Shown here: piece after piece, positions 28,891 to 63,884 of the stretch
Layout of the letters: every line of letters starts with the position of its first letter
Numbering within the stretch: the stretch's first letter is position 1
Assembly (NCBI RefSeq): GCF_032854445.1
Contig: NC_088303.1
Span: 17,679,501 to 17,743,500, forward strand
Source: Liolophura sinensis
Lineage: Eukaryota > Mollusca > Polyplacophora > Chitonida > Chitonidae
Direction: 5' to 3'
Length of the DNA stretch: 64,000 bases
Translations under genes and position numbers: made by a program
Notes under the pieces: generated by a model
The model's input: the letters and a program-made list of their open reading frames with translations, nothing else
What the model was told of the DNA's origin: nothing
Database searches by the model: none

Positions 28891-28892
28891 TA

Positions 28893-29066
28893 TACTTAAT
28901 TTATTTTTTTATACAGATATGTACTCAAGAATTTGTATAGCGTCTGTAAAGTTAACAAATGTAAGAAATCGGAAAAAAATACTTAATTTATTTTTTTATA
29001 CAGATATGTACTCAAGAATTTGTATAGCGTCTGTAAAGTTAACAAATGTAAGAAATCGGAAAAACT
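28893..29066. repeat. Recent tandem duplication, 87 bp x 2
   Basis: The unit from TACTTAATTTATTTTTTTAT to AAGAAATCGGAAAAA occurs at 28893-28979 and 28980-29066 and differs only at its last few bases. The near identity suggests recent duplication. Confidence 0.95.
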
Positions 29067-29914: not shown

Positions 29915-30010
29915 TTTGTGTTGTTTTGGAAGCTGATCTTGCGATTGTTGTTCTGAAACGCCTACTATCATTGACCATTTTATGGAATGTGAATGTCTGT
30001 TACGCGGCCT
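29915..30010 (+). repeat. Terminal repeat of the reverse-transcriptase element, 3' half
   Basis: GTGTTGTTTTGGAA, GATCTTGCGATTGTTG, a degraded GGAACGTCC-like word, CATTGACC and GAATGTCTGTTACGC follow the order of better copies. It may belong with the 5' half at 29315, separated by an insertion. Confidence 0.55.
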
Positions 30011-30089
30011 AAATTTACACATACTGTACTAATTTTCTATATATATAAATATACTTTTATGAACACCACTTGTTGAGTCTTTGGTAAAC

Positions 30090-30200
30090 ATGAGACTCAT
30101 GCTATTGGGTCCGGGTTGACTGTAGGGTCTTGAGGTTGACTAATGGGTCTTTATCAATTATTAGACCGGGTTATTGGGGCATAGTTGACTGTTGGGTCAT
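30090..30200. repeat. TGGGTC-type short repeat cluster
   Basis: CTATTGGGTCcGGGTTGACT, TAATGGGTCT, TTATTGGGGC and GACTGTTGGGTCAT recur within 110 bp. They resemble the larger arrays at 39995 and 41960. Confidence 0.5.
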
Positions 30201-30956
30201 AAAAACCATGGGGCGCCACGTGCTTTCTTTACCCCACCGTCTAAGACTTGAGTGAAGTTGACGAAACGAGGTATTTGAGAAATTTGAAAGTGGGGATTGC
30301 TTTAGCGAGGCAAGGTGACACAAATCAGTTTCATTGAAGAACCAGCTTTTCACAATGGACATCTGAGAAGGGCCTCGACGACTGACAGAACAAGAAGTCC
30401 CGTCTTTTCAACTGCCAGGATTTGTGCCCAGGTAGGCATAAAGCTACTTTTGTTACTTGGTTAGATAACATGATAGGTTTGTTGGCAATGTTACGTATGT
30501 CCAGTAAACACTGACTCTACAGACAGTACAATAACTGATAAAAAATGTTTGCACATTATCACACCAGAACAGTCAATCTACACCGCACACGTAAAATATG
30601 AACGTCAGTTACAAACCGTAGCTTTGAACTCATGTCGCCTTGAAGCAGAGTTTTGTATTAACTTAATGTGCTTGTTATTTCCGCAATATTTCTATTTTTC
30701 AAAAAAAGTGTGAGTGTGTTTCAACGATGAAGCCTTATTAAATTACAACAGCAACAACACCGAAGCGCCACACAGACTTCAACTGACTTTCTCGACGTTT
30801 ATTGCAAGATTTAGTGTTTATTAAGTGGCTTGAACTCCGAAAGATTCCCAACTCCTTTTCGAGTCCCGGCAAGCAACGTCGGATGAAAACGTCAGCTAAC
30901 AGCCAAATTACATGATATTCGTACGGTGTTTTATACGCTTTGTTACGTATATACAA

Positions 30957-31660
30957 ACGTTCGCACCACTACAACAAGGGTTAAGTACGGCGGCCTAATG
31001 GCGCCATGCAATTTCATTTGTTTTTGTTTTGGCTGTTTCTACATACAAGTACACTTTCTAGTAAGGCGGCTTATCAGTCTGTTTATCAGTAAAGTTAATT
31101 AATCAGTTTACACAGAAAATAACTTTTTAACGCAGAACATTTTTTTCATATTCATTTTTTTCTCTCAGGAAAATCATTCCTTACTTGGAATTTTCTTCTT
31201 TACTCATTAGAAATCATTTTTATGAGGAAATTATTTTTTTAGAAGAAAAATTACTTTTTCATAACAAAATAAGTTTCCCCGACGTTGAAATATGTAGGGA
31301 GTATTATGCACTTAGTTATATGTAAGCCTTTGCCATCGTGCCACTACAACATAGGTTAAGTACCGTGACATGCAATTTCATTTCAATTTTTGGAATGTTT
31401 TCTTTTCCCGGTATACCCTTGCTAGTAAGATGGCTTATCAGGCTGTTTTTTTTTTTACAACCGTAGTCATTTTTTTCATGTTAGAAATAATTTTTTAAAG
31501 AGGAAATTATTTCATTGTTAATTTTTTACGAAGAAATTTTTGTTTAACATAGGAAATCATTTTTTACGAGGAAATTAGATTTTTAAACAGAGAATTTTTT
31601 GATAACAGTTGTATGCGCTTGGCTATATGTAAACAAACTTTCTCGATCGTGCCACTATGA
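30957..31660. repeat. Tandem duplication, about 310-380 bp units, rich in GAAATTATTTTT motifs
   Basis: CCACTACAACA, GGTTAAGTAC, ATGCAATTTCATTT, CTAGTAAG and GGCTTATCAG recur in order at about 30965 and 31338. The opening words recur a third time near 31645. Between them runs a degenerate array of AGGAAATTATTTTTTACG. Confidence 0.75.
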
Positions 31661-32389
31661 CTTCGGTTAAGGGTAACACTGATCCCTCTTGAACAAAACT
31701 TCACATTTTATAAAAACAGAAACGGAGAAAATGAGCAAAATGACAGAAGGAGCAATTTTCGTGACAAAAATTATCAGTGGTTAATTTCTATACTTAACAT
31801 GAAATAACTCACTTCGTTATTCAAAGGGTGGGGGGGGGGGGAGGGGCAGTCTTTGTTTATACCGGAAATATTATAAGCTGTATGTCTATTAATACTACAC
31901 TTACATACTTCATACTTGGTGTATATGACACTTTATGAGGTCTATCATATGTCGCCGACTGCTGTATATATGTTAACTAATATATTAATTAATACTACAC
32001 GTGTTTTAGCATTAGTCGACATCATTAAAATATGATAACAAGATGTATGGTCTTTAGCTTGAGTAGGTTTAGAAGTTGGTTTTGTAATTAATTTGGTGCT
32101 TTTTAACTTTGGCATTACACTAAAACCCTTTAAATTATTTAAATAATTTTAATTTATTAAAATATTTTACAATCCCTTCGATAAAAAGGATTTTAAAACA
32201 CCAGGGTATTATAAAACATATTCACACATTGTTCCACTTTTCTCTATAATATAAAATTCTCAGTTTAACAAAGATTTGGAGAATTAAAATTGTTATCCAC
32301 ATATAGGTAACACGACGTTGAAAATGTGAACTCCAATATAGTTTCATTTTATTGCTCTTTTCTTGTGAGTCATTTCACTCTTTTTTTAG

Positions 32390-32446
32390 ATTTGCCTGGA
32401 ATTGAAGATTTGGGATTATCAGGGTCAACATCTACATGTGATACGG
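32390..32446 (+). CDS. Candidate short exon (57 nt, phase 1-1), gene not recognised
   Basis: A pyrimidine tract and TTTTTTTAG precede it and donor GTATGT follows. The phase 1 reading is D-LPGIEDLGLSGSTSTCDT-G, with no stop. It shares LP near its start and CD two or three residues before its end with the exon-like segment at 35429. Both also share intron phase and the flanking base pattern (exon ends in G, next begins AT). The protein is acidic and Ser/Thr-rich with no domain that I recognise. Splice signals, a length divisible by three and the matching segments downstream support it. With no transcript evidence it remains a proposal. Confidence 0.45.
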
Positions 32447-32638
32447 GTATGTATATCAGTCTGACATCAATCCAGCTGTCAGTTCTGCTTTTAGTCCATT
32501 ATGGCTGTGTTTTTTTTTTCTGACTATCTTTTCAACAAGAATTCATCCAGGAACGTATAGAAAATGAGACCTCATAGATCACAGTAATTTTATTGCTCTT
32601 TTCTTGTGAGACCCTTCTCTTGGCGTCTCTGGTTTTAT

Positions 32639-32685
32639 ATTTGCCTGGAAGTGAATCAGGATTATCACAATCAACAATGACACAG
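32639..32685 (+). pseudogene. Decayed duplicate of the exon at 32390
   Basis: ATTTGCCTGGAAgTGAA, TCAGGATTATCA and CAGGTATGT repeat exon 32390. The upstream TTTTATTGCTCTTTTCTTGT also repeats the intron before it. The acceptor AG is lost (TTTTATATTTG), and the length, 47 nt, breaks the frame. It sits directly at the edge of the 43-bp minisatellite. Confidence 0.7.
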
Positions 32686-34702
32686 GTATGTGGCACAGGT
32701 GTACATATCTGTGTATTATGTCACATATACATGTGACACAGGTGTCCCTATCTGTGTATTAGGTCGCATCTACATGTGACACAAGTGTGCATATCTGTGT
32801 ATTATGTCACATATACATGTGACACAGGTGTGCATATCTGTATATTAGGTCTCATCTACATGTGACATAGGTGTGCATACCTGTATATTAGGTCACAGCT
32901 ACATGTGACACAGGTGTGCATATCTGTATATTAGGTCACAGCTACATGTGACACAGGTGTACATATCTGTATATTAGGTCACATCTACATGTGACATAGG
33001 TGTGCATATCTGTGTATTAGGTCACATCTACATGTGACACAGGTGTGCATATCTGTGTATTATGTCACATATACATGTGACACAGGCGTCCCTATCTGTG
33101 TATTAGGTCACAGCTACATGTGACACAGGTGTACATATCTGTACATTAGGTCATATCTACATGTGACATAGGTGTGCATATCTGTGTATTAGGTCACATC
33201 TACATGTGACACAGGTGTGCATATCTGTACATTAGGTCTCATCTACATGTGGCACAGGTGTGCATATCTGTATATTAGGTCGCATATACAGGTGACACAG
33301 GTGTGCATATCTGTGTATTATGTCACATCTACAGTTGAGACAGGTGTGCATATCTGTGTATTAGATCACATCTACATGTGACGCAGATGTGCATATCTGT
33401 GGATTAGGTCACATTTACATGTGACACTGGTGTGCATATCTGTATATTATGTCACATCTACAGGGTGAGACAGGTGTGCATATCTGTGTATTAGATCACA
33501 TCTACATGTGACTCAGATGTGCATATCTGTGTATTAGGTCACATTTACATGTTGCAAAGGTATGCCTATCTGTGTATTATGTCACATTTACAGGTGAGAC
33601 AGGTGTGCATATCTGTATATTAGGTCGCATATACATGTGACACAGGTGTGCATATCTGTGTATTATGTCACATCTACATGTGACACAGGTGTGCATACCT
33701 GTATATTAGGTCACATCTACATGTGACACAGTTGTGTATATCTGTGTATTAGGCCACATATACATGTAAGACAGGTGTGCATATCTGTGTATTATGTCAC
33801 ATTTACAGGTGAGACAGGTGTGCATGTCTGTGTATTAGATCACATCTACATGTGACTCAGATGTGCATATCTGTGTATTAGGTCACATTTACATGTTGCA
33901 AAGGTATGCCTATCTGTGTATTATGTCACATTTACAGGTGAGACAGGTGTGCATATCTGTATTTTAGGTCACAGCTACATGTGACACAGGTGTGCATATC
34001 TGTGTATTATGTCACATCTACATGTGACACAGGTGTGCATACCTGTATATTAGGTCACAGCTACATGTGACACAGTTGTGTATATCTGTGTATTAGGCCA
34101 CATATACATGTGAGACAGGTGTGCATATCTGTATATTAGGTGACATCTACCTGTGACACAGGTGTGCATATCTGTGTATTATGTCACATCTACATGCGAC
34201 ACAGGTGTGCATATCTGTATATTAGGTCTCATCTACATGTGACACAGGTGTGCATACCTGTATATTAGGTCACAGCTACATGTGACACAGTTGTGTATAT
34301 CTGTGTATTAGGCCACATATACATGTGACAAAGGTGTGCATATCTGTGTATTATGTCACATTTACAGGTGAGACAGGTGTGCGTGTCTGTGTATTAGATC
34401 ACATCTACATGTGACTCAGATGTGCATATCTGTGTATTAGGTCACATTTACATGTTGCAAAGGTATGCCTATCTGTGTATTATGTCACATTTACAGGTGA
34501 GACAGGTGTGCATATCTGTATATTAGGTCACAGCTACATGTGACACAGGTGTGTATATCTGTATATTAGGTCACAGCTACATGTGACACAGGTGTGTATA
34601 TCTGTATATTAGGTGACATCTACAGGTGAGACAGGTATGTATATCTGTGTATTATGTCACATCTACAGGTGAGACAGGTGTGCATATCTGTGTATTAGGT
34701 CA
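32680..34702. repeat. Minisatellite, 43-bp unit, about 47 copies
   Basis: A representative unit runs GTCACATCTACATGTGACAC, AGGTGTGCATATCTG, TGTATTAG. Many units vary by one to three bases and variants are interspersed (GTGAGACAGGTG, GACTCAGATGTG, TTGCAAAGGTATG). Each unit contains the palindrome GTCACAT-CTAC-ATGTGAC. The unit closely resembles the 3' end plus 5' splice site of the exon at 32390, including an ACAGGTGTG or ACAGGTATG donor-like word. The array begins immediately after the decayed exon copy. Confidence 0.95.
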
Positions 34703-34883
34703 ACTATAATACTTTGATCGTTTTGTCCCATATCCACATCGTAAAAATTCTGGATAAAAGCAGACGGGAAATTTTGTTATCTATGTGAATTTGTCAAGTC
34801 ATCCACCCAGGCAAAATGAAGTTTATTGATTTTATATCTAAATTACATTTGAACTTGTCTACCTGTAGCAACAACATACATAG

Positions 34884-35063
34884 AAACCCACGACCATCCA
34901 CAGGCTGCAGAAAAAGACCCTGACCTACCATCTGGACCATGCCACAGTTCAAATCCACCTCAAATCCAAATTCTTGAAAACAGCGTTAAACACAACTCGC
35001 CGCCGTTGTATAAGTGAAATTGTCTGAGTATGGCGTAAAACACCAGTCAGATTAAACATCAGT
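34884..35063 (+). mobile_element. Very diverged SINE family A remnant
   Basis: It has AAACCCACGACCATCCACAG near its start and CGCCGTTGTATAAGTGAAAT, GAGTATGGCGTAAAACACCA and a GTCAGATTAAA tail at its end. The orientation of the first block is opposite to that of the last, so this may be two fragments. Confidence 0.6.
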
Positions 35064-35428
35064 CAGTTGATCAGTTTAGAGGGTTTGCTTTCAATTGCTG
35101 GGTCACAACTAACGTAAATTCAGTCTCTCAGATTGTGTCTTTTCCAGATTCCCTTGCTATCACTGTACTAAGTGCCTTGGTGACTTGTTTGATCGACGTT
35201 GCTCTTTCAGTGACTCAGTGGAAGCCCCCCGGAGAACACATATAAGTTATGTGGGAATGTCTGCGAGTATGAACTAATGTGGAGCCTCATTTTCTGCTTG
35301 ACATTTCCGATTGGTAGCCACAATATTTGTCAACATTCACTCAAAAATATACTAAAATTGGTCAGCAATTAATATAATTTAGTATTTTGTGAAAACTGAA
35401 AAAGTGAAACTTGATTGTTTTCTTTCAG

Positions 35429-35488
35429 ATTTGCCGGTAGAAAGGCATGAATTGAGGTTATTCAGATCCAAAACTGCGTGTGATAAAG
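35429..35488 (+). CDS. Candidate short exon (60 nt, phase 1-1), gene not recognised
   Basis: The acceptor is TTTTCTTTCAG and the donor is GTACCT. The phase 1 reading is D-LPVERHELRLFRSKTACDK-G. Its start (AT TTG CC), its TGTGAT near the end and its phase match the exon at 32390, as if the two were ancient duplicates. It can be joined in frame to that exon and to 37517. Confidence 0.42.
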
Positions 35489-36049
35489 GTACCTATATTC
35501 ATATTAAAGAGTATTATAGCATCCTGTTCTAATTCCAATCCTAGCCGGGTCTTATATCTGTAGCTTGTGTCATATCAGGACGACAGGCGTAACTTATGTT
35601 ATATCCCGAACGCTGGCGTCGGCGTCTAATATCTGGGAAAGATATGCTGAACAAAATTTTATTGTATTTAGATGGTATTGTAAAAATACTCCTTTTAGAG
35701 AGCTCATGATTTGCACACATGTAGAGCACAATCCGACAATAATACGAGGAGTACCATCGTTGATTCGCTGTGTGCATATCAAATACCGTAAATTACAAAC
35801 TTCGCGACTTTAGAGTCAATGTTAACGGAAATGCTAGGGGTCCTACTCAGAAGTACTGCCTGCAGTGACCTGAGGTTTTACGTGCATATAAATCTAAATG
35901 ACGAGTGTGGGGTGGGGGTGGTGTGGAGGCTGTCCATCGCTGATGCTAAGTACTTTATTATGTATGGAGCTGAAGTTTTGCATTCATATGTTCATCTCTT
36001 ACGGATAGCCTTGCTACCAAATCTTAAGTTGTGTTACGCATGGAAATTA

Positions 36050-36265
36050 CATATGGGCTATGAGCTTTTACTTTGATTTTGATATTATGCCTATAATATC
36101 AACTGTCTTCCCTGAAGCATTTAAAGCTGGTGGCTGCTTCTCTCGTACATGTCACGGCGTTATTAACTATTTACATAATTTTTTTTTTTTACATATTCCT
36201 TTGAGAGCTGATGTTTTAGGTTGTTTTGGAAATAAGCTTGCAGTGATGGACTTGGAATGTCTTCA
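36050..36265 (+). repeat. Degenerate terminal repeat of the reverse-transcriptase element
   Basis: TTTGATATTATGCCT, ATATCAACTGTCTTCCCTG, TGGCTGCTTCTCTCGTACAT, GGTTGTTTTGGAAAT and GATGGACTTGGAA follow the order of the 52383 copy. The 73-codon ORF here is a product of this repeat. Confidence 0.65.
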
Positions 36266-36499
36266 GATGGCTCCCAAGTAGTACTCTGAACATGGCTTCG
36301 AAACACTGTAGAATGCATTGTCTATAGCGTTTTACAGGCTTAGACATTCTGCATTTTAACAGCTTTAAGTTTCATTGAGAAGTCAAGTGTAGCGGAATAC
36401 AGACATATATTTCTCATGAAAGGCAATCTCTTGGTTCAATTTTTACATGGCATCTTTTCAGTCTGCCTTCTTAGAGACGGGTCTCAGGGCGCAGACTGT

Positions 36500-36625
36500 G
36501 ACTTGTCTGTTTATTAGAAACTGTCAACCATTAGAAATGGGTCTCACTATCATTGAGCATCCCGTGATGCGTGGCTTTACAGCTTTAATCTATTTTTACT
36601 CTTTTTTTTTAAATATACCTATCTT
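36500..36625 (+). repeat. Second degenerate terminal-repeat fragment
   Basis: GAAATGGGTCTCACTATCAT and TGAGCATCCCGTG align with GAAATGGATCTTGCGATTAT and CGACTTGGAACGCCC of the 52383 copy. Confidence 0.4.
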
Positions 36626-37074
36626 CCTGATGGACTATATGGGTTATTTCATATATGTGACATATAGGCCTCTTTTCATGCATGTCACTCAAGGTCAAAT
36701 TCCCAGAAAGATCACTCATGTTAATGAAAATTTATCCAAAGGTTAAAAGGTCAGCCATGCAAACTTTCAAAGTTTTAGGGGAAAAGTGCTTTCCTCAAAT
36801 CTGTGGGATTCATTGTGGGAAATTACACATCTACGTCAAGGAATCTGATTGTATTTTGTCGCGTATCTGTCTCATGCAGGTTATATTGAGGCAGAAGTCC
36901 AAGTTTACTGAAATCTAATTAAGTCATTTGTGACGAAAATCTCACTAAGTTTTCAAATAAACCGTTATTTAAGATTTTCTGAAACTCATGAAAATGTCAT
37001 CTCTAAAGCAAAGTTCTGAACTGAGTGACATTTGAAGAAAACTGTTAGTTTAGAAAGCCAGGGCATTGATTTTT

Positions 37075-37180
37075 ATATGCCCGCCTCAGTTAGGCAGGGC
37101 GTATTATGTTATAACGATTTTGTCCGTCCTTCCGTCTGTCTGTCCGTCCATATTCGTGTCCGGGCTATAACTTTTATAAC
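37075..37180 (+). repeat. Interspersed repeat with GTCCGTCC run
   Basis: TATGCCCGCCT and AGGCAGGGCGTATTATG are followed by a CCGTCCTTCCGTCTGTCTGT run. The GCCCGCCT/AGGCAGGGC pair can form a hairpin. I recall this layout (a GC hairpin, GTATTATG, then repeated GTCCGTCC) as the end of a repeat that is common in marine invertebrate genomes; its class is unknown to me. Confidence 0.55.
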
Positions 37181-37516
37181 AATTGTTTTCAATGGGTAGT
37201 TTTACTTTTTGGTGGAATACACAGATGACTATGTGTGACGACTCACATTTGTCCGTGTTTGCGGTTGTCAAGAAACAAGAACCCGATAGCCATTTTCCCT
37301 ATAAATAATGGCTCTTCCGGTTTGAAGCCTATCATTGCTATACTCGCCTGCTATGTTTATGGAAACTCAGTGTCTAGTACAATAGTCCAAAAAGTTTCAC
37401 TTATATCATGGTGGTTGGGTTTGTGAGTTGAAACTGTAAATTAGGTTCATAAATAAATCTACTATATAAATCTGCTTTATATCGACCAAGTTCTTTCTTT
37501 TTACTTGATTTATCAG

Positions 37517-37570
37517 GAAGTGGAAACCATAACGACAGTTCAGACACTTTCAGTGATCAAGGAGAAAATG
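37517..37570 (+). CDS. Candidate short exon (54 nt, phase 1-1), gene not recognised
   Basis: The acceptor context is TTTTACTTGATTTATCAG and the donor is GTATCC. Phase 1 in and out gives GSGNHNDSSDTFSDQGEN, an acidic Ser/Asn-rich linker. It is compatible in frame with the exons at 32390 and 35429, and with a possible last piece at 38349. Confidence 0.4.
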
Positions 37571-38348
37571 GTATCCATTTGATTAGGTTGTATAATACTC
37601 ATGTAACAGAATATGATCTATATAAACTAATTCCTCAACCATTTCGCATGTGAAGAGCAATTTTATACACTTTTGTAATCTGATTTTGGCAACAAAACTA
37701 AATCGGTTAAATTGGGCAGTTTCAGGGCTTCAGAAAAAGTGTAATTTTATCAGTCAACAATGAACAATGCCTCCAGAATATGGAGGCAAACTTGCGAAAA
37801 GGTTGAAGAATAACAGTATGATCCATTTACGTAGAAACTTTCCCTGCAATACTAGCATGTATTCCTATCAATATGCCTGGTATAATTTTTTAAAAATAAT
37901 TTTAAGTAAGAAGTAAAGGGAAATGCAAAAAGTCTTCATTTTTAGAATGGCAGCAAATTTAAAAGAAGGCAAATGGAGACGTTCTGCTAAATGAAAGGAT
38001 ATGTAGGCAACGTCTTCTGCTAACAGAAACAGGCGGAACACATCACTACAGTGAGCTGGATGTGACCACTAGTTTTTCTGATCAGGATGATGGCGCATAC
38101 CCGTAGAGCACTTCACCCATTTTATTATGTTCAAAAACAGAATTTTAGTCTTATTCCATATATCCTTTATAACAATACAAAAGCACAGTAGGCCAGTATC
38201 ATTCTGATGCAAGGAGAACAAATGTGGTAATCTAGCTGACAGAAGCATTAGTGTATTGTAGGCAGTTTTCTACTTTTAACGGTACAGAAACAGTTTTAAT
38301 TGAAATAGACATTTCAACGCTCTTGATATGTTGTCCTATTTATGACAG

Positions 38349-38647
38349 ACTTTGTATGGAAGCGTGTTAAAAAAGGAAGATGATTGAAAGTGATGAGGAG
38401 GATGACATGTATGCAGTGGGAGTCATTAGTATGGACTGCAGAAGAAAAGAAACACAAAAGGCGACAAAAGACAACAGAAGATAATAAAGCGATTTCAACA
38501 TTCTTTAGAAAGCGGCTGAAAGGGATTTCAAAATGTATTACCGAATTACCGAAATGTATTAGGAATACCGATTTAAAAGGAACACAAAAGCAGTTTCCAC
38601 GTTTCCATGGCCGTACACTGGCACAGATGAGGAAAAAAAATGAATAA
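38349..38647 (+). CDS. Possible terminal exon or decayed coding segment
   Basis: After acceptor TTTATGACAG at 38348, phase 1 reading gives DFVWKRVKKGR and a stop at 38382. A second reading of the same stretch, open 38384-38647, gives an 87-residue basic segment with VWTAEEKKHKRR and STFFRKRLKG and a stop at 38645. The two frames do not join without a shift or another splice. Either the gene ends at 38384, or the segment is a pseudogene with a frameshift. The WxxEE...F(F)xxxI layout vaguely recalls C-terminal segments of uncharacterised molluscan proteins; I would not assign a family. Confidence 0.25.
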
Positions 38648-39197
38648 TATTAAATTAGGAAACGTGCTACAATTTGGTGTAACTTTCATCATAGTAGCTT
38701 GTTGTAGTTTTCAGTCTACAGGTAAAAAATCTTCAACTGTTTTACATGTGGAGTTTTAATTTTGGATGAACACAGATACGCAGATGGTGGTGTGTCACAC
38801 CTCATCACACATGATCGGAAACCATTGATACTGTGAAAATTAGTAAGCAGGTAGATCAACTACTGCTCTTCATTTTCATCCTATTTAATTATTTCGTCAC
38901 ACTGTGAATTTTTTATTCTAAATGCGTTCAAAGACTTGTTATCAAGTGCATGTATTTTCAAATTTCATCTCGTAGCTTTGTACGTGTATTTCAAACTTAT
39001 AACATTCTTTTTGCGCAAACCCCGTCTTGTTAGTGCGTTAAACATGATCCTTTTCAAATTCCCCTTGTTATGTAGATGTTGATCACCGTGAATGGAGGTG
39101 AGATGATGTATTTTCAGTCTGTACATATTGATGAACAAGTGGTGACCTGGAATTAAACTGTTGTCATGGAGCTCCTGGTTTCCGTTATTTCTTTGCG

Positions 39198-39576
39198 CTA
39201 TTTTCCCAAAGAGTATACTAAGTCTGTGAGGAATGTCTGTTTTTTTTTTTCATTTACGCTTAGCAGGACATCAACCTTCCCCTCAGGATTAGTGAGCCCA
39301 TATCCAGCTGGTGCTGTACTTGTGTTAAGCCTTAAGTGGGATGGTTTGTCAGCAACAGTAAATGTACAAGAGGTTGTCAGTTCTCTCCTGTCAGCGATTG
39401 GTGTCCCACCGACATAATTCTGACTAAATCTTCGGTATTTAACAAAGTTTATTGGATTTACTTTGAACAATATTTCGGTCGCATCATAAACAGCGCTTCC
39501 TTTAGAACGGCGGTCCCAGAACAAACATTTCAGAGTGCTTCCTGAGACACTGAAAATGGCATTCGCATTGTTTTTG
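39198..39576 (-). CDS. Unrecognised ORF or exon, about 125 codons
   Basis: The open frame runs from about 39576 to a stop at 39198, after an in-frame TAG just upstream. Its first part includes IFSVSGSTLKCLFWDRRSK, with a TTTCAG acceptor-like word at its start. No ATG is needed if it is an exon. The translation has two cysteines and a region around TSCTFTVADKPSHL that looks protein-like, but I recognise no family. It could be chance. It lies on the strand opposite the candidate short exons. Confidence 0.28.
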
Positions 39577-39994
39577 TTACTCTCAGGCTATGGAAACACT
39601 ATGGAAGTCTTAACGTGATAACAAATCGTCAACCAGCCCTGGTCAGTATATGTAAATAGAGAGAATCAGACAGAGATCGTGCATCAACTATACAGTCATT
39701 CTACATGTACATAAAGAACACCTGATTCGAGCCAGCTCCATAGAATGGTGTATCATTCTGGCTTGCGGAAGGTTGTTGCTATCTCTTCTTGACTGTATTA
39801 GGTTCCTGCTTGCATTTCTTGCCACGATATGAATGAAATAATCTTAGGAATGGTATGAATGCCTACACAGAAATAAGGAAATATTACTTGGTTGCAAAAG
39901 TAAAAACCCAAACTTTGTACATAGTATATAGCGAAACTCTAAGACAAATTTTAACAAGTTAAATACACTTACGTGAAGTAATATAAATGGGGTA

Positions 39995-43632: not shown

Positions 43633-45684
43633 AACCTACATACAGCAATCCTCAACCAAAACAGACATCGCCCCCTTACCTGCATACAGCAATCCTCAAC
43701 CATAACAGACATCGCCGCCCTACCTACTTACAGCAATCCTCAATCATAACAGACATCGCCGCCCTACCTACCTACAGTAATCCTCAACCATAACAGACAT
43801 AACTGGCCAACCTACTTACAGCAATCCTCAACCAAAACAGATATCGCCGGCCTACATACTTACAACATATCTCAACCATAACAGACATAGTCAGCCTACC
43901 TATAGCTATTTACAGCAATCCTCAACCACAAAAGACATCACCGCCCTACATACTTACAACAATTCTCAACCACAACAGACATCGACACCCGACATACTTT
44001 CAGCAATCCTCAACCACAAAAGACATCATCGCCCTACATACTTACAACAATCCTCAACTACAACAGACATCGACACCCGACATACTTTCAGCAATCCTCA
44101 ACCATAAAAGACATCATCGCCCTACATACTTACAACAAACCTCGATCATAACAAACAAAGCCAGCCTACTTATAGCTATTTACAGCAATCCCCAACTATA
44201 ACAGACATCACCGCCCTACATACTTACAGCAATCCTCAACTACAATAGACATCACCGCCCTACATACTTAATACAATCCTCAACCACAACAGACATCGAC
44301 ACCCGACATACTTTCAGCAATCCTCAACCACAAAAGACATCATCGCCCTACATACTTACAACATGTCTCAACCATAACAAACATAGCCAGCCTACTTATA
44401 GCTATTTACAGCAATCCTCAACCATAACAGACATCGCCGCCCTACATACTTACTACAATCCTCAACCATAACAGACATCCCCGCCCTACATACTTACAGC
44501 AATCCTCAACTACAACAGACATCACCGCCCTACATACTTACTACAATCCTCAACCACAACAGACATCGACACCCAACATACTTACTACAATCCTCAACCA
44601 TAACAGACATCGCCGCCCTACATACTTACATCAATCCTCAACCATAACATACACCGCCGCCCTACATACTTACAGCAATCCTCAACTACAACAGACATCA
44701 CCGCCCTACATACTTACTACAATCCTCAACCACAACAGACGTCGACACCCGACATACTTTCAGCAATCCTCAACCACAAAAGACATCATCGCCCTACATA
44801 CTTACAACATGTCTCAACCATAACAAACATAGCCAACCTACTTATAGCTACTTACAGCAATCCTCAACCATAACAGACATCGCCGCCCTACATACTTACA
44901 GCAATCCTCAACCATAACAGATATCGCCGCCCTACATACTTACAGCAATCCTCAACCATAACAGACATCGCCGCCCTACATACTTACTACAATCCTCAAC
45001 CACAACAGACATCGACACCCGACATACTTTCAGCAATCCTCAACCATAACAGACATCCCCGCCCTACATACTTACAGCAATCCTCAACCATAACAGACAT
45101 CCCCGCCCTACCTATCCTCAACTATCCTTTTTACAGCAATCCTCAACCATAACAGATACCGCCGGCCTATCTACTTAGAGCAATCCTCATCCTTAACAGA
45201 TATGGCGGGTCTACCTACTAACAGCATTCCTCTGTCATAACAGACATCACCCCCAGATACCTACGGCAATTCTCAACCATGACAGATATTATCGGCCTAC
45301 ATATACTTGCAGCAATTCTCAGTCATAACAGACATCGACACCCGACGTACCATCGGCAATCTTCAACCATAACAGACATCACCGCCCTACAAACTTTCAA
45401 CAATCCTCAACCATAACAGATATCGCTGGCCTACCTACTTACAGCAATCCTCAACCATAAAAGACATCAACGCCCTACATACTTACAGCAATCCTCAACC
45501 ATAACAGACATCGCTGCCCTACATACTTACAACAATCCTCAACCATAAAAGACAACATCGCCCTACATTCTTACAGCAATCCTCAACCATAACAGACATC
45601 ACCGCCCTACCTACTTATAGCAATCCTCAACCAAAACAGACATCGCCCCCTACCTACATACAGCAATCCTAACCATAACAGAGG
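43633..45684. repeat. Minisatellite, 44-bp unit, about 46 copies
   Basis: A typical unit runs CTACATACTTACAGCAATCC, TCAACCATAACAGACATCGC, CGCC. Variants recur in fixed order: GACACCCGACATACTTTCAG then ACAAAAGACATCATCGCC, and TATAGCTATTTACAGC at 43904, 44172, 44397 and 44844. This implies duplication of multi-unit blocks. Period 44 is not divisible by 3, and the array is non-coding. Confidence 0.95.
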
Positions 45685-50361: not shown

Positions 50362-50580
50362 TACTGATTAGACTCATTCGCCAAGAACATACATTGCGTC
50401 TTTCCAGCATTGAAAAAAGCTTCTCTTGCATGATTTCATCCTCATTTCACACATTACATACTTTCTTAGTTCTTTGGTGTTTTCTGTTAGAGGTCGTTTT
50501 GGGAATTGCCTTTGAGATCATTGACACAGAACGTCCTTTTGGGTTGATGGCTGGAAAAGAGTAATGTCAACATTCGATCA
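50362..50580 (+). repeat. Terminal-repeat segment running into the reverse transcriptase frame
   Basis: AATACTGATTaGAcTCATTC, AACATACATTGCGTCTTTCC, GTCGTTTTGGGAATTGCCTT and TTTTGGGTTGATGGCTGG match other terminal repeats. The repeat continues to about 50580, so the first codons of the open frame overlap the repeat end. Confidence 0.75.
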
Positions 50581-52122
50581 AACAAAAAAAATATCATCTC
50601 GGCACTTGAGGAGTATGTCAAAAAATGGTCAAAACTTGAGAAAGTGGATTCTTCGGTACTTAACGATTGGCTTGAGATTGTCAAAAAGAAAGTTAGTTTA
50701 ACTAGGCCTATACACCGTCTAGACATTGATGCTCTACCTAAAGTTAGACAGGTTCTGAGGGATCCCACTGTGCAGGAAACACTCGCTGGCCTTCGTGGTG
50801 AATTTGTCATCACTGTAGCAGACAAGGCTCCTAATAATGTCATCTTTATTTGCAAGAATTATTATTATCAAATTCTTGTTCAAGAGCTATGTACATCTAC
50901 AACGACATCCACGTATTCTGCTACTACATGTACTCTGGGGGAACTGTTTAACAAACACAAAACCTTTCTTAGGGAAAGGCGCATAAATATGCCTGCCCGT
51001 CACGCAGAAATACCACAACTTTGCTGGATTCCTGGAATGCATAAATCCCCATGCAAGGCTCGATTTGTTGCGGGTTCAGGGGGCTGTGCCGCCAGACTCT
51101 TGTCAACCCTACTTACGAGAGCGTTACAAGAAGTAAAGTCATTTTGGAATAAGTATTGTTGTGCCATAACAAAAAATTCAGGTGTCAACTGCATGTGGAT
51201 TCTTAACAACTCCAAACGTCTCACAGAAGAACTCGATGCTCATATGCATATACCGTACAAAGACGTATCCACATGGGATTTCTCTACTCTCTATACTACG
51301 AGTCCTTACAAAGATCTTATTGAAAGAATATCGTCGTTAATTGTCTCGGTATTTACTAAAACAGGTCACCGTTACATTAACGTCAGAAGCAATAAGCCTT
51401 TCTTTAGTTCTACTCTTTATAAAGGTTACCACTCATGGGATGTTACATTATTTATTGAATTACTTGAATTTCTCATTAATAACAACTATGTGAAATTCGG
51501 AGATACCATTTACCAACAGTGCATAGGTATTCTAATGGGTACCAATTGTGCGCCTCTTTTGGCAGACCTATACCTGTTTTCATATGAATACATATCTATG
51601 CAGAAATTACTTAAAAGTAATATCTTTAAAGCTCGATCCTTTTCATTTACCAAGCGGTATAATGATGATCTACTGGCGTTAAATAATCCCCATATTGCTG
51701 AAGCGGTGAAGAAAATCTATCCGCCTTCATTGGATTTAAAGGAGACAACAGATAGTCCTGATGGTACATCATATTTGGATCTATACCTGTACAAAGACGG
51801 ACAAGGTCTCCTTTCACGTCGCCTTTACGACATAAGGGATAATTTCAATTTTGATATTGTAAATTATCGTTATTTAGATAGCAATATACCAAAGGGTCCT
51901 GCATATGGCGTATACATATCTCGCCTTGTAGCATTTGTCAGATCTTGCGTTAATTGTGATGACTTTAATCTGCGTCGCAAGTTGCTAGTTCAAGAACTAG
52001 TTTGTCAAGGATACTCCATGAAACGCCTTCATTCTAAGTTTCTCAAATTTTACAATGAGTACAACACTCTCGTTGGCAGTTATGAACAGAGCATTCAGAA
52101 TCTCTGGCGATCTGCATTGTGA
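50548..52122 (+). CDS. Reverse transcriptase of a retroelement, tentatively Penelope-like
   Basis: The frame is open from after a TGA at 50545 to the TGA at 52120, about 524 codons. No in-frame ATG precedes the conserved part (the first near-cognate is GTG at 50644), so the 5' end is truncated or a start was lost. Counting that GTG as residue 1, motif A is WDFSTLY with Asp212. Motif B is GILMGTNCAPLLADLYL (295-311). Motif C is RYNDDLL with both catalytic Asp at 341-342. A YLDLYLY segment and SPAYGVYIS-like GPAYGVYIS follow. No GIY-YIG, AP or RNase H domain is seen. The terminal repeats around it and the RT style suggest a Penelope-like or related element without endonuclease; other endonuclease-less retroelements are possible. 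No stop or frameshift breaks the core, so it is a young copy. Confidence 0.85.
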   Translation, partial: WLEKSNVNIRSNKKNIISALEEYVKKWSKLEKVDSSVLNDWLEIVKKKVSLTRPIHRLDIDALPKVRQVLRDPTVQETLAGLRGEFVITVADKAPNNVIFICKNYYYQILVQELCTSTTTSTYSATTCTLGELFNKHKTFLRERRINMPARHAEIPQLCWIPGMHKSPCKARFVAGSGGCAARLLSTLLTRALQEVKSFWNKYCCAITKNSGVNCMWILNNSKRLTEELDAHMHIPYKDVSTWDFSTLYTTSPYKDLIERISSLIVSVFTKTGHRYINVRSNKPFFSSTLYKGYHSWDVTLFIELLEFLINNNYVKFGDTIYQQCIGILMGTNCAPLLADLYLFSYEYISMQKLLKSNIFKARSFSFTKRYNDDLLALNNPHIAEAVKKIYPPSLDLKETTDSPDGTSYLDLYLYKDGQGLLSRRLYDIRDNFNFDIVNYRYLDSNIPKGPAYGVYISRLVAFVRSCVNCDDFNLRRKLLVQELVCQGYSMKRLHSKFLKFYNEYNTLVGSYEQSIQNLWRSAL

Positions 52123-58666: not shown

Positions 58667-58768
58667 TGTCAGCGGCCTGGGTTGACTTCATTCGATTCGA
58701 TAGCGCCGCACAACACGGTTCGAAGCACGGAAGCGTAGTCGCTCACCGCTCTATAACACAACTTAACC

Positions 58769-59311
58769 ATGGCTGATGTTGCTCCAAAAGTAAAGAAGGC
58801 TGCAAAGCCCAAGAAGCCCTCTAACCATCCAAAGTACAGTGAGATGATCAAAGCGGCTATTACAAGTCTGAAAGAAAGGGGAGGCTCTTCAAGACAGGCC
58901 ATCCTCCGTTATATTATGGCCCATTATAATGTGGGTAAGGACGAGAAAGTTGTGAACACCCACTTGAAGTTGTCTCTGAAATCCGGGGTTAAGAAAGGAA
59001 CCTTGAAACAATCGAAGGGTACCGGAGCGTCTGGTTCATTCCGTCTTGGTGCCGTCGAAAAAGCAAAGAAGGTGAAGAAATCCCCAAAGGTCAAGAAGCC
59101 AAAGGCAGCCAAGCCGAAGAAGGCGAAAAGCCCAGCGAAGAAAGCCGCCAAAAAGTCCCCAGCAAAGAAAGCCACCAAGAAGTCCCCAGCGAAGAAGGCG
59201 GCCAAGAAACCAGCCACAAAGAGACCAGCCACCAAGAAGCCCAAGTCGCCAAAGAAGAAGGCACCCGCCAAAAAGGTAAAGAAGTCACCGAAGAAAGCTG
59301 CGAAGAAGTAA
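58769..59311 (+). CDS. Linker histone H1
   Basis: The protein has 180 residues and is intronless. It binds linker DNA at the nucleosome dyad and compacts chromatin. The short N-terminal tail is MADVAPKVKKAAKPKKPSNH. The winged-helix globular domain spans about residues 18-94 (PKYSEMIKAAITSLKERGGS, SRQAILRYI, VNTHLKLSLKSGVKKGTLKQ, GTGASGSFRLG). The C-terminal half is almost all Lys/Ala/Pro, with repeated SPAKKAAKK/SPAKKATKK motifs whose SP pairs are Cdk sites. The length is close to that of invertebrate H1 and of the H1.0/H5-like orphon H1 genes of bivalves. No other histone gene lies in the window, so it is a solitary gene. No canonical 3' histone stem-loop was seen just after the stop, which favours a polyadenylated, replication-independent H1. 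Confidence 0.96.
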   Translation: MADVAPKVKKAAKPKKPSNHPKYSEMIKAAITSLKERGGSSRQAILRYIMAHYNVGKDEKVVNTHLKLSLKSGVKKGTLKQSKGTGASGSFRLGAVEKAKKVKKSPKVKKPKAAKPKKAKSPAKKAAKKSPAKKATKKSPAKKAAKKPATKRPATKKPKSPKKKAPAKKVKKSPKKAAKK

Positions 59312-61236: not shown

Positions 61237-63216
61237 TCGACACCGCTTGCACGACTAGCTCGGCGAAATCGTAGTCTCGAAAGCAGAAAACTAAGATCAT
61301 TTAACAGAGAAAGAAGATTGAATTTATCAAATACAGCCGTTCGATCCTATCAAACATTACCACGTGTATTTGCATACGGTATTCTTACAGGAAAAAGCAA
61401 TATAAGACTATATATATAAAGTATCTTACAAAGAGGTTAAAAGGTATACCTTTATATTTTAGCGATGTTTCATAACCAATCATAATTCGAAGTGTAAGCG
61501 TAATCGCTAATAATGAGAAAATCGAAGGCGCCGCTCTGTTATCAGTTCTGTTCTATAACCGAGACTACATCTGCTTACGTTGACGTCACTCGACGTGTGC
61601 TTTGTCTTTTAGCCATATATGTTTGTGTACGTTTTTTTAAGGTTCATTTATCTTGCACGTCAGAAAAAATGGCCGTTAAAAGTGGCCGTTAAGGTCCTTT
61701 TCTACCCCACTTCTGAAATAAATATACGTGTCATGTTAGCAGAGTATCGGTAACTATAAATTTGTTGTCGGGATAAATTTATCAAAAGTCTGAACAGCGT
61801 CTGAATAGTTGCCATGCTTTTTTTTTTCATCACATATATGAGTGACATCATTCATTCTCACAATTATATATGCTATGTGTCAAGACACCATTGTATAGGC
61901 TTTGGCTTGCGGGTAAAGCATCTCAAATCCGAATGAATTAAAATTGGGCACATCTATAACTAATACTAACACCCAGGGTCACAGAGATCAAAGACAAGGT
62001 GGGAAGGGGTGGTAAGAAGACGGTGAAGCTGAGAAATAGACAGATATACATAACTGTGCACTAATTTTTCATAATCACCTAGTGCCATTTTTGTTTTTTT
62101 CGGAAAAAGTTATTATATATGAGGCTCGTTATTGATGAATTAATGATTGGTGTTGGACGCTGTAATGAAAAATATTTCCCATATTAGTATACGATATTGG
62201 TCAGTTTTATGAGTAGAGGAAACTGGAGTTAAACACTGGTCTTTTCATGGGAAAATGAAGGCTTGGTGCAATCACCGCCCAACACATGCAATATTAAAGT
62301 ACGCCGATATTATGTATTAACCGCCAAGGACCGATACCAAGTATAGACCACGTATGTCTTGGGCTATGTATTTATATCCCACAAACCGTAAATTTGCATA
62401 TGTAAAATAAAAGTACATTGTTTATCTTAAGAACTAAATCATTTTGAACTCAATATGTCAGTACTTTATTACGCCATTATCAGGAATAATAAATGGAGGT
62501 TATACTCAATGTCAGCACTTTATTACGCCATAATCACGAGTAATAAGTGGATGCTGTACTCAGTATGTCAACCCTTCATTACGCCATCGTCAGGAATAAT
62601 AAATGGACTTTGTACCAAATGTAAGCACTTTATAACGCCATAAATAGAAATTATAAATAAATGCTGTACTCAATATGTCATCACTTCATTACGTTATGGC
62701 ATCATCAAGAATAATAAATGGACGTTGATACTCAATATGTCACCACTTCATTACGCTATGCATCATCAGGAATAATAAATACACTTTGTACTCAATGTGT
62801 ACACACTTTACTACGCCTTGATTAGGAATAATAAATGGATTTTATATTCAATATCAGTACTTTAGTACGCAATAACTAGGAATAATACATAGATTTTGTA
62901 TATATGCTATGTCAGTACTTTAATTATTATATCATCATCAGCAATAATAAGTAGAATTTGAACTCAGTATATCAGCAATTTATTACGCCATCATGAGGAA
63001 TAATAAATAGGTGTTCTGCTCAGTATGTCAGCACTATATTACGTCATCGCCAGGAATAATAAACGGATTTTGAACTCAATATGTCACCACTTTATTACGT
63101 CATCGTCAGGAGTAATAAATAGATTTTGAACTCAACATGTTTGTACTTTATTACGCCATCATCAGGAATAATAAATGAATGTTGTGGTCAGCATGTCAGC
63201 ACTTTATTACGCCATC

Positions 63217-63473
63217 TGGCTCAGTTGGTTAGCTCGCTAGCGCAGCGCAATGACCCAGGAGTCTCTCACCAATGCGGTCGCTGTGATTTCAAGTCCAGCT
63301 CATGCTGGCTTCCTTTCCGACCGTACGTGGGAAGGTCTGTCAAAAACCTGCGGATGGTCGTGGGTTTCCCCCGGGTTGTGCCCGGTTTCCACCCACCAAA
63401 ATGCTGGCCGCCGTCGTATAAGTGAAATATTCTTGGGTACGACGTAAAACACCAATCAAATAAATAAATAAAT
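63217..63473 (+). mobile_element. Full-length SINE family A inside the 57-bp array
   Basis: A-box TGGCTCAGTTGGTTAGCTCG, B-box-like ATTTCAAGTCC, CCAGCTCATGCTGGCTTCCT, central domain ACCTGCGGATGGTCGTGGGT, GCCGCCGTCGTATAAGTGAA and an AAATAAATAAAT tail are present. The target-site duplication is ATTACGCCATC at 63206-63216 and 63474-63484. The array unit resumes in register only if one copy of these 11 bases is removed, so the duplication is genuine. The head is derived from a tRNA. The conserved centre is the kind used to define MetaSINE-type families (name from memory, not checked). Confidence 0.96.
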
Positions 63474-63693
63474 ATTACGCCATCATCAGTAATAATAAAT
63501 GGATGTTGTACTCAATATGGCAGCATTTTCTTCCGCCACAATCAGGAATAATAAATGGGTGTTGTACTCAATATGTCAGCACTTTATTACGTCATCTCCA
63601 GGAACTGTAAATGGATGTTGTACTCAATATGGCAGCACTTTCTTACACCACCACCAGGAATAATAAATGGGTTTTGTACTTAATATGTCAGCA

Positions 63694-63884
63694 TTTTATT
63701 TGTTTATTTATTTTATTTATTTGATTGCTGTTTTACGCCGTACTCAAGAATATTTCACTTATACGACGGTGGCCAGCATTATGGTTGGTGGAAATCGGGC
63801 AGAGCCCGGGGAGACCCACAATCATCCGCAGGTTGCTGGCAGACCTTCCCACGTACGGGCGGAGAGGAAGCCAGCATGAGCTGG
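63694..63884 (-). mobile_element. SINE family A, truncated at its head, inside the 57-bp array
   Basis: A TTTATTTGTTTATTTATTT tail complement is followed by GATTGCTGTTTTACGCCGTA, CCAGCATTATGGTTGGTGG, CATCCGCAGGTTGCTGGCAG and AAGCCAGCATGAGCTGG. GTCAGCA, part of the array unit, flanks both sides (63687-63693 and 63885-63891). Confidence 0.93.

Follow-up and report, generated by a model that had tools for sequence, protein, structure and literature searches.

How does the junction between an exon and its 5′ splice site become the unit of a minisatellite? The question is raised by a 64,000-nucleotide stretch of Liolophura sinensis DNA (hereafter the window; positions 17679501–17743500 of contig C9 of the searched genome), in which TRF places a tandem repeat of period 43 at 32688–34702 on the + strand, with 46.8 copies and 86% matches. 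The original prediction had put about 47 units of 43 bp at this locus, in good agreement with this result, and 43 bp × 46.8 copies fits the description of a minisatellite as head-to-tail units of ~10–100 bp in many copies. By wraparound alignment the window array has 48 rows, 46 of which are full units with a mean pairwise identity of 0.869. The unit corresponds to the last 17 nt of an exon (ATCTACATGTGACACAG) followed by 26 nt of intron start (GTGTGCATATCTGTGTATTAGGTCAC), and its consensus, cut at the exon part, reads TCACATCTACATGTGACACAG then GTGTGCATATCTGTGTATTAGG. Since 43 is not a multiple of three and each of the three + frames contains 25–28 stops through the window array, the array is non-coding on this strand. 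Its length is credible, as 2 kb is less than the mean HiFi read of the assembly, which PMC11068029 gives as 8.3 kb.

Three related candidate exons accompany the array, all on the + strand. Exon A (32390–32446, 57 nt, phase 1-1) codes for LPGIEDLGLSGSTSTCDT and has both an acceptor AG and the donor GTATGT, in the layout TTTTTTTAG, exon, GTATGT. Exon B (32639–32685) is a decayed copy of exon A that has lost its acceptor AG, being preceded by TTTTAT, and at 47 nt it is out of frame; a second exon copy of just this kind, with the array directly after it, had been proposed from the window alone, and TTTTAT in place of AG bears this out. Exon C (35429–35488, 60 nt, phase 1-1) has AG and GT, is also present at two of the related loci described below (L002 and L006), and has diverged furthest of the three family members.

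Exon A does not touch the array, lying ~240 bp upstream of it, and it can therefore be used as an independent test of the likeness between exon and unit. When exon A and its flanks are aligned with the array interior (32751–34702), 29 of 33 positions are identical (score 46) over ACATCTACATGTGATACGGGTATGTATATCAGT, and the match crosses the splice junction, as the original prediction had stated. A short match (33 bp) in an AT-rich region could in principle reflect nothing but chance likeness between AT-rich sequences, and an alignment at chance level would have spoken against descent of the unit from the exon. However, 500 dinucleotide shuffles of the exon A query have a mean score of 18.5 and a best of 30, so that none equals 46, and four paralogous loci show exon B passing without a gap into unit 1; we regard chance as extremely improbable. 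Among the controls against the array, 113 of 500 shuffles are as good as the exon C region, which alone therefore has no above-chance match to the array, and 156 of 500 are as good as an intron stretch. Over the seven arrays described below, the best local alignment to exon A spans the exon end in 212 of the 222 units of at least 38 nt.

The L. sinensis genome (609,464,459 bases in 632 contigs) was searched with probes for exon A, the array, exon C and the flanks; each search found some of the eight places that form their union, and the counts are lower bounds. The eight loci are the window and L001 on contig C9, L002 and L006 on C8, L003, L004 and L005 on C10, and L007 on C6. The stretch of the window that is common in patches to the seven paralogous loci runs from 30136 to 39543 (+ strand), with means over 50-bp windows of 0.44 to 1.00, mostly 0.75–0.95 where aligned. 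Partial units included, wraparound alignment gives 52 array rows at L001, 41 at L002, 27 at L003, 37 at L004 and 27 at L005, beside the 48 of the window, and L006 has 3 rows in 90 bp, or ~2 units; array copy number thus differs between paralogous loci, from 3 to 52 rows. L007 has exon A and no array, and homology there ends a few bases short of the donor of this exon; with the break just before the exon end, this locus is uninformative on the origin of the array. A 3-unit probe found at least 96 matches in the genome, all at the seven array loci. Matches of the flank probes were largely short dispersed repeats: 32 of the 43 for the first probe (at least 43 in all), all in probe bases 126–403, and 23 of the 27 for the second (at least 27 in all), none longer than 84 bp.

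These loci also indicate which exon copy gave rise to the array. In L001, L004, L005 and L006 there is no break between exon B and unit 1, the first half-unit being the exon's own end, and a unit made of an exon end plus the adjacent intron start can be read there directly. Because the array is contiguous with copy B and not with copy A, exon B is its direct parent. The paralogs thus support the earlier proposal that an exon was duplicated and that only its junction was then amplified, with the correction that the parent is B and not A. We put the probability at roughly 0.86 that the array is an intronic minisatellite seeded, after exon duplication, by the splice-donor junction of exon B.

The exon copies themselves allow the order of events to be examined. 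Exon A is also found in L003 (52 of 57 positions identical to the window), L004 (54 of 57), L006 (54 of 57) and L007 (51 of the 52 kept), and exon B has an AG and is in frame in L004 (48 nt), L005 (54 nt) and L006 (48 nt). An alignment of 12 A, B and C copies from the window and the seven loci, from which the window copy of B (47 nt, no AG) was left out as visibly decayed, has internal gaps of only 3 or 6 nt, and the open frame begins and ends in phase 1. A sequence-only exon model, applied to 194 kb, matches 13 exons in full or nearly so, namely these 12 copies and window copy B, and otherwise matches only array units, a result that is partly built in, since the first bases of unit 1 are part of the B rows. 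Copies of A are on average 0.915 identical to one another, those of B 0.858 and those of C 0.900; between slots the mean is 0.809 for A and B, and ~0.63 to C (A–C 0.628). In two exon trees the copies group by exon slot and not by locus, with C set apart at supports of 1.00 and 100, and with the A and B groups at only ~0.75 and 71–76. The pairing of A with B as the closer two of the three copies is demonstrated, or nearly so, and it is likely that C split first, followed by A and B. Gaps of only 3 or 6 nt, together with the grouping by slot rather than by locus, indicate that the exon duplications are older than the dispersal of the loci.

The units carry a similar record. Window units are 0.868 identical to those of L001 and 0.873 to those of L002, compared with 0.869 to one another; they are less like the units of L003 (0.843), L004 (0.840) and L005 (0.818), and the units within L005 are 0.799 identical. 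The nearest neighbour of a unit comes from its own locus in 63% of cases, against a mean of 17% with shuffled labels (30 shuffles). Because identity between loci is about the same as identity within the window while 63% of the neighbours are local, the array appears to be older than the dispersal and to have undergone later local amplification, and the simplest reading would be that a long array predates dispersal and was followed by local turnover. The array would then have grown after the A/B exon duplication and probably before the loci dispersed, and we infer an ancestor free of the array.

A candidate for the first step lies at the edges of the array. The motif TCAAC occurs inside exon B near the upstream edge of the ancestral unit (32671–32675, + strand; also in exon A at 32425–32429), and again at the downstream edge of the array, at the start of the surviving native intron (34700–34704, + strand; TCAACTATAATACT), where it is common to L001, L002 and L006. 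After the last unit the window, L001, L002 and L006 read TTAGGTCAAC[C/T]ATAATACT, the same native intron flank in four of the seven arrays; the arrays of L003, L004 and L005 are truncated at this end and lack the native flank. The exon B motif is present in the window, L001 and L004, reads TCAAA in L005, and is deleted in L006. Slippage or unequal exchange between an exonic and an intronic copy of TCAAC, ~44 bp from each other, could have produced the first duplication of the junction. A search among the units for the 44-bp form with TCAACA at the unit joint (TTAGGTCAACA), which an exact slip between the motifs would be expected to produce, found none kept; the units read TCACAT, one A short, and therefore either one base was lost or the break lay elsewhere. 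Loss of one A after the first duplication would give the 43-bp unit. Later slippage may have been eased by self-complementarity of the unit: as single-stranded DNA an 86-base stretch (two units) has a fold of −18.3 kcal/mol compared with a shuffle mean of −11.7 (z −3.16; 0 of 200 shuffles as good), and such folding of a two-unit stretch would, on this model, favour slippage. By the time the locus spread to several chromosomes, the array would already have comprised tens of units; each array would thereafter have grown, shrunk and recombined separately, and it may now evolve about neutrally, adding donor-like sites to an intron.

Several loci correspond to steps on such a path. L003, which lacks exon B, has exon A joined straight to the array, the product that would be expected from recombination between the exon A junction and a unit. 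At L002 exons A and B are gone, while homologous intron extends from upstream as far as the array, with exon C beyond it; an array without its exon, which the original prediction had named as counterevidence if seen in related genomes, is therefore found only superficially, since upstream intron and exon C remain as a deletion would leave them. L006, with ~2 units, may preserve the founder state or may be a contraction: its CAG/TT variant is shared with other loci, being present in three window units and in a single unit at both L003 and L005. Minisatellites can seldom be traced to their origin, and here eight loci in one genome trace what appears to be the path step by step, through parent exon, junction unit, near-minimal array, long arrays and exon–array fusion.

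The opposite order of events, in which the array came first (borne by a mobile element, for example) and an exon later acquired one of its units as a 3′ end, must also be weighed. The locus family is spread over C6, C8, C9 and C10 in eight known copies with introns alike, and a low-copy mobile element could give the same picture; as to a mobile element, the unit was found at seven loci and the family is dispersed but low-copy. Against this order, however, the kinship of exons A, B and C extends over their full length, taking in ~40 upstream nt that have no counterpart in the array, and C branches off deepest; moreover, the unit was found only at these loci (the at least 96 matches above), and native intron continues at the array end in four of the seven arrays. 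We thus consider it highly unlikely that the array preceded the exon, and retain its origin from the exon B junction.

The array is best regarded as a new and unusually legible case of a known kind, and it is closest to the human CBS 31-bp repeat. The latter, as described in PMC2630376, is a VNTR designated c.1444_1467+7(16_21), which by its notation comprises 24 exon and 7 intron bases in 16–21 repeats. Like the chiton array it is a minisatellite across an exon/5′ splice junction; CBS, in contrast, is another gene in another phylum, and its repeat has a shorter unit and is polymorphic in people, whereas here there are seven dispersed paralogous loci and a duplicated, decaying exon beside the array. 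In human segmental-duplication paralogs, according to passages of PMC2812944, internal minisatellites of variable copy number change gene structure, and activated cryptic splice sites and new introns are reported for some of them. Copy number differs between paralogs there as it does here, although those repeats average four 30-bp units and the passages describe no array on a single donor junction. PMC4974935 describes introns gained when AGGT segments, or a boundary, were duplicated in tandem (potato RdRp); duplication of an exon/intron boundary multiplies splice signals in both systems (the window array has 71 AGGT), but those cases made a working new intron, whereas the duplication here lies at the start of an existing intron. 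Among the titles and abstracts listed by keyword searches of open-access literature none describes this array, which is weak evidence.

The units bring with them many donor-like sites. GT is retained at the old junction in 38 of the 46 full window units and in 185 of the 224 full units of the seven arrays, 39 of the 224 having lost it; the original claim of a donor in every unit thus applies to most units and not to all, and the dozens of decoy donors that it foresaw in the intron are present as sequence. U1 duplex energy serves here as a simple measure of pairing, which is not the same as a trained splice model. Of 47 gap-free window junctions, the 39 that have GT average −6.3 kcal/mol; the donor of exon A itself is at −7.1, and 612 background GTs average −1.7. 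The 2015-bp array contains 39 GTs at or below −6.65 kcal/mol, whereas 29 other stretches of this length in the window contain 3.0 on average and at most 11. This abundance, and the persistence of arrays at seven loci, would be expected if the array were kept for a function, with decoy donors or U1 binding regulating splicing of the host, or with 22-nt micro-exons lying between TTAG and CAG/GTGTGC; dozens of near-identical donors or such micro-exons would then cause splice variation, and array length would tune the isoform mix. The conservation of the unit does not agree with this: the +1 G (0.866) ranks 36 of 43 positions, the GT is missing from the 39 full units just mentioned, the exon- and intron-derived parts are about equally conserved (0.925 and 0.916), and the host exons are broken or missing in most copies. 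The donor-like sites are not specially conserved, and retention for function is very improbable in our view. The array also offers a natural test of whether many donor-like sites disturb splicing or are tolerated as an exon decays.

Among the fetched stretches, none retains all three exons with every splice site in place. In the window A and C are intact but B is broken. A is kept at L003 and, together with B, at L004; B is kept at L005, and C at L002. At L006 the AG of A and the GTs of B and C have been lost; B has no AG at L001, and A no donor at L007. Window exon A differs from four other copies by 3 synonymous and 7 nonsynonymous codon changes, and it is hardly better conserved than the 60 bp that precede it (52/57 versus 50/57 between the window and L003; 54/57 versus 51/56 between the window and L004). 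There is thus little sign of present constraint, and the exons may no longer be coding; the locus family may be a gene family, the relics of one, or a low-copy element. A screen of 30001–39700 for further conserved AG...GT exons with support in two or more paralogs gave two rows, both of them exon A, though it demands a pyrimidine tract and a good donor and so can miss others.

Two further stretches were considered as host exons. A 34-codon open stretch at 30330–30431 was rejected as a first exon: counting itself, it has at least 41 matches in the genome (the DNA search scored 40 of 111 candidates), stops in 2 of the 5 other protein matches, and no Pfam family. It is taken as a short interspersed repeat of ~90 bp (30330–30417), some relatives of which contain stops. 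Read by eye, and as speculation, 38659–38721 could be a phase 1-1 exon with a hydrophobic stretch (NVLQFGVTFIIVACCSFQST); its frame is open in L002, L004 and L005, and the acceptor there is G-rich and poor.

The remainder of the window contains several other features. A Pfam scan of the three + frames of 1–58892 (E ≤ 0.1) found no family except linker histone H1 and one bacterial match below its curated cut-off; the H1 gene occupies 58757–59311 as one open frame with a lysine-rich repeated tail. A 524-aa open frame at 50548–52122 has no Pfam match at E ≤ 0.1, and it resembles the reverse transcriptase of a Penelope-like element. A second large minisatellite lies at 43637–45682, with a 44-bp unit in 33 plus 12.6 copies and a 132-bp higher-order period; on its minus strand CTGTAAGTATG is donor-like at +1 to +6, not at −1, with a U1 energy of −4.9. 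A 56-bp minisatellite at 62444–63697 is interrupted by a ~250-bp dispersed repeat, further copies of which occur at several places in the window and within or next to the paralogous loci. An exact tandem duplication of 87 bp (100% matches) at 28892–29064 is so either very recent or an assembly effect. Elsewhere in the assembly, contig C99 contains seven COX1 copies ~15.5 kb apart; mitochondrial genome has apparently remained here as a concatemer.
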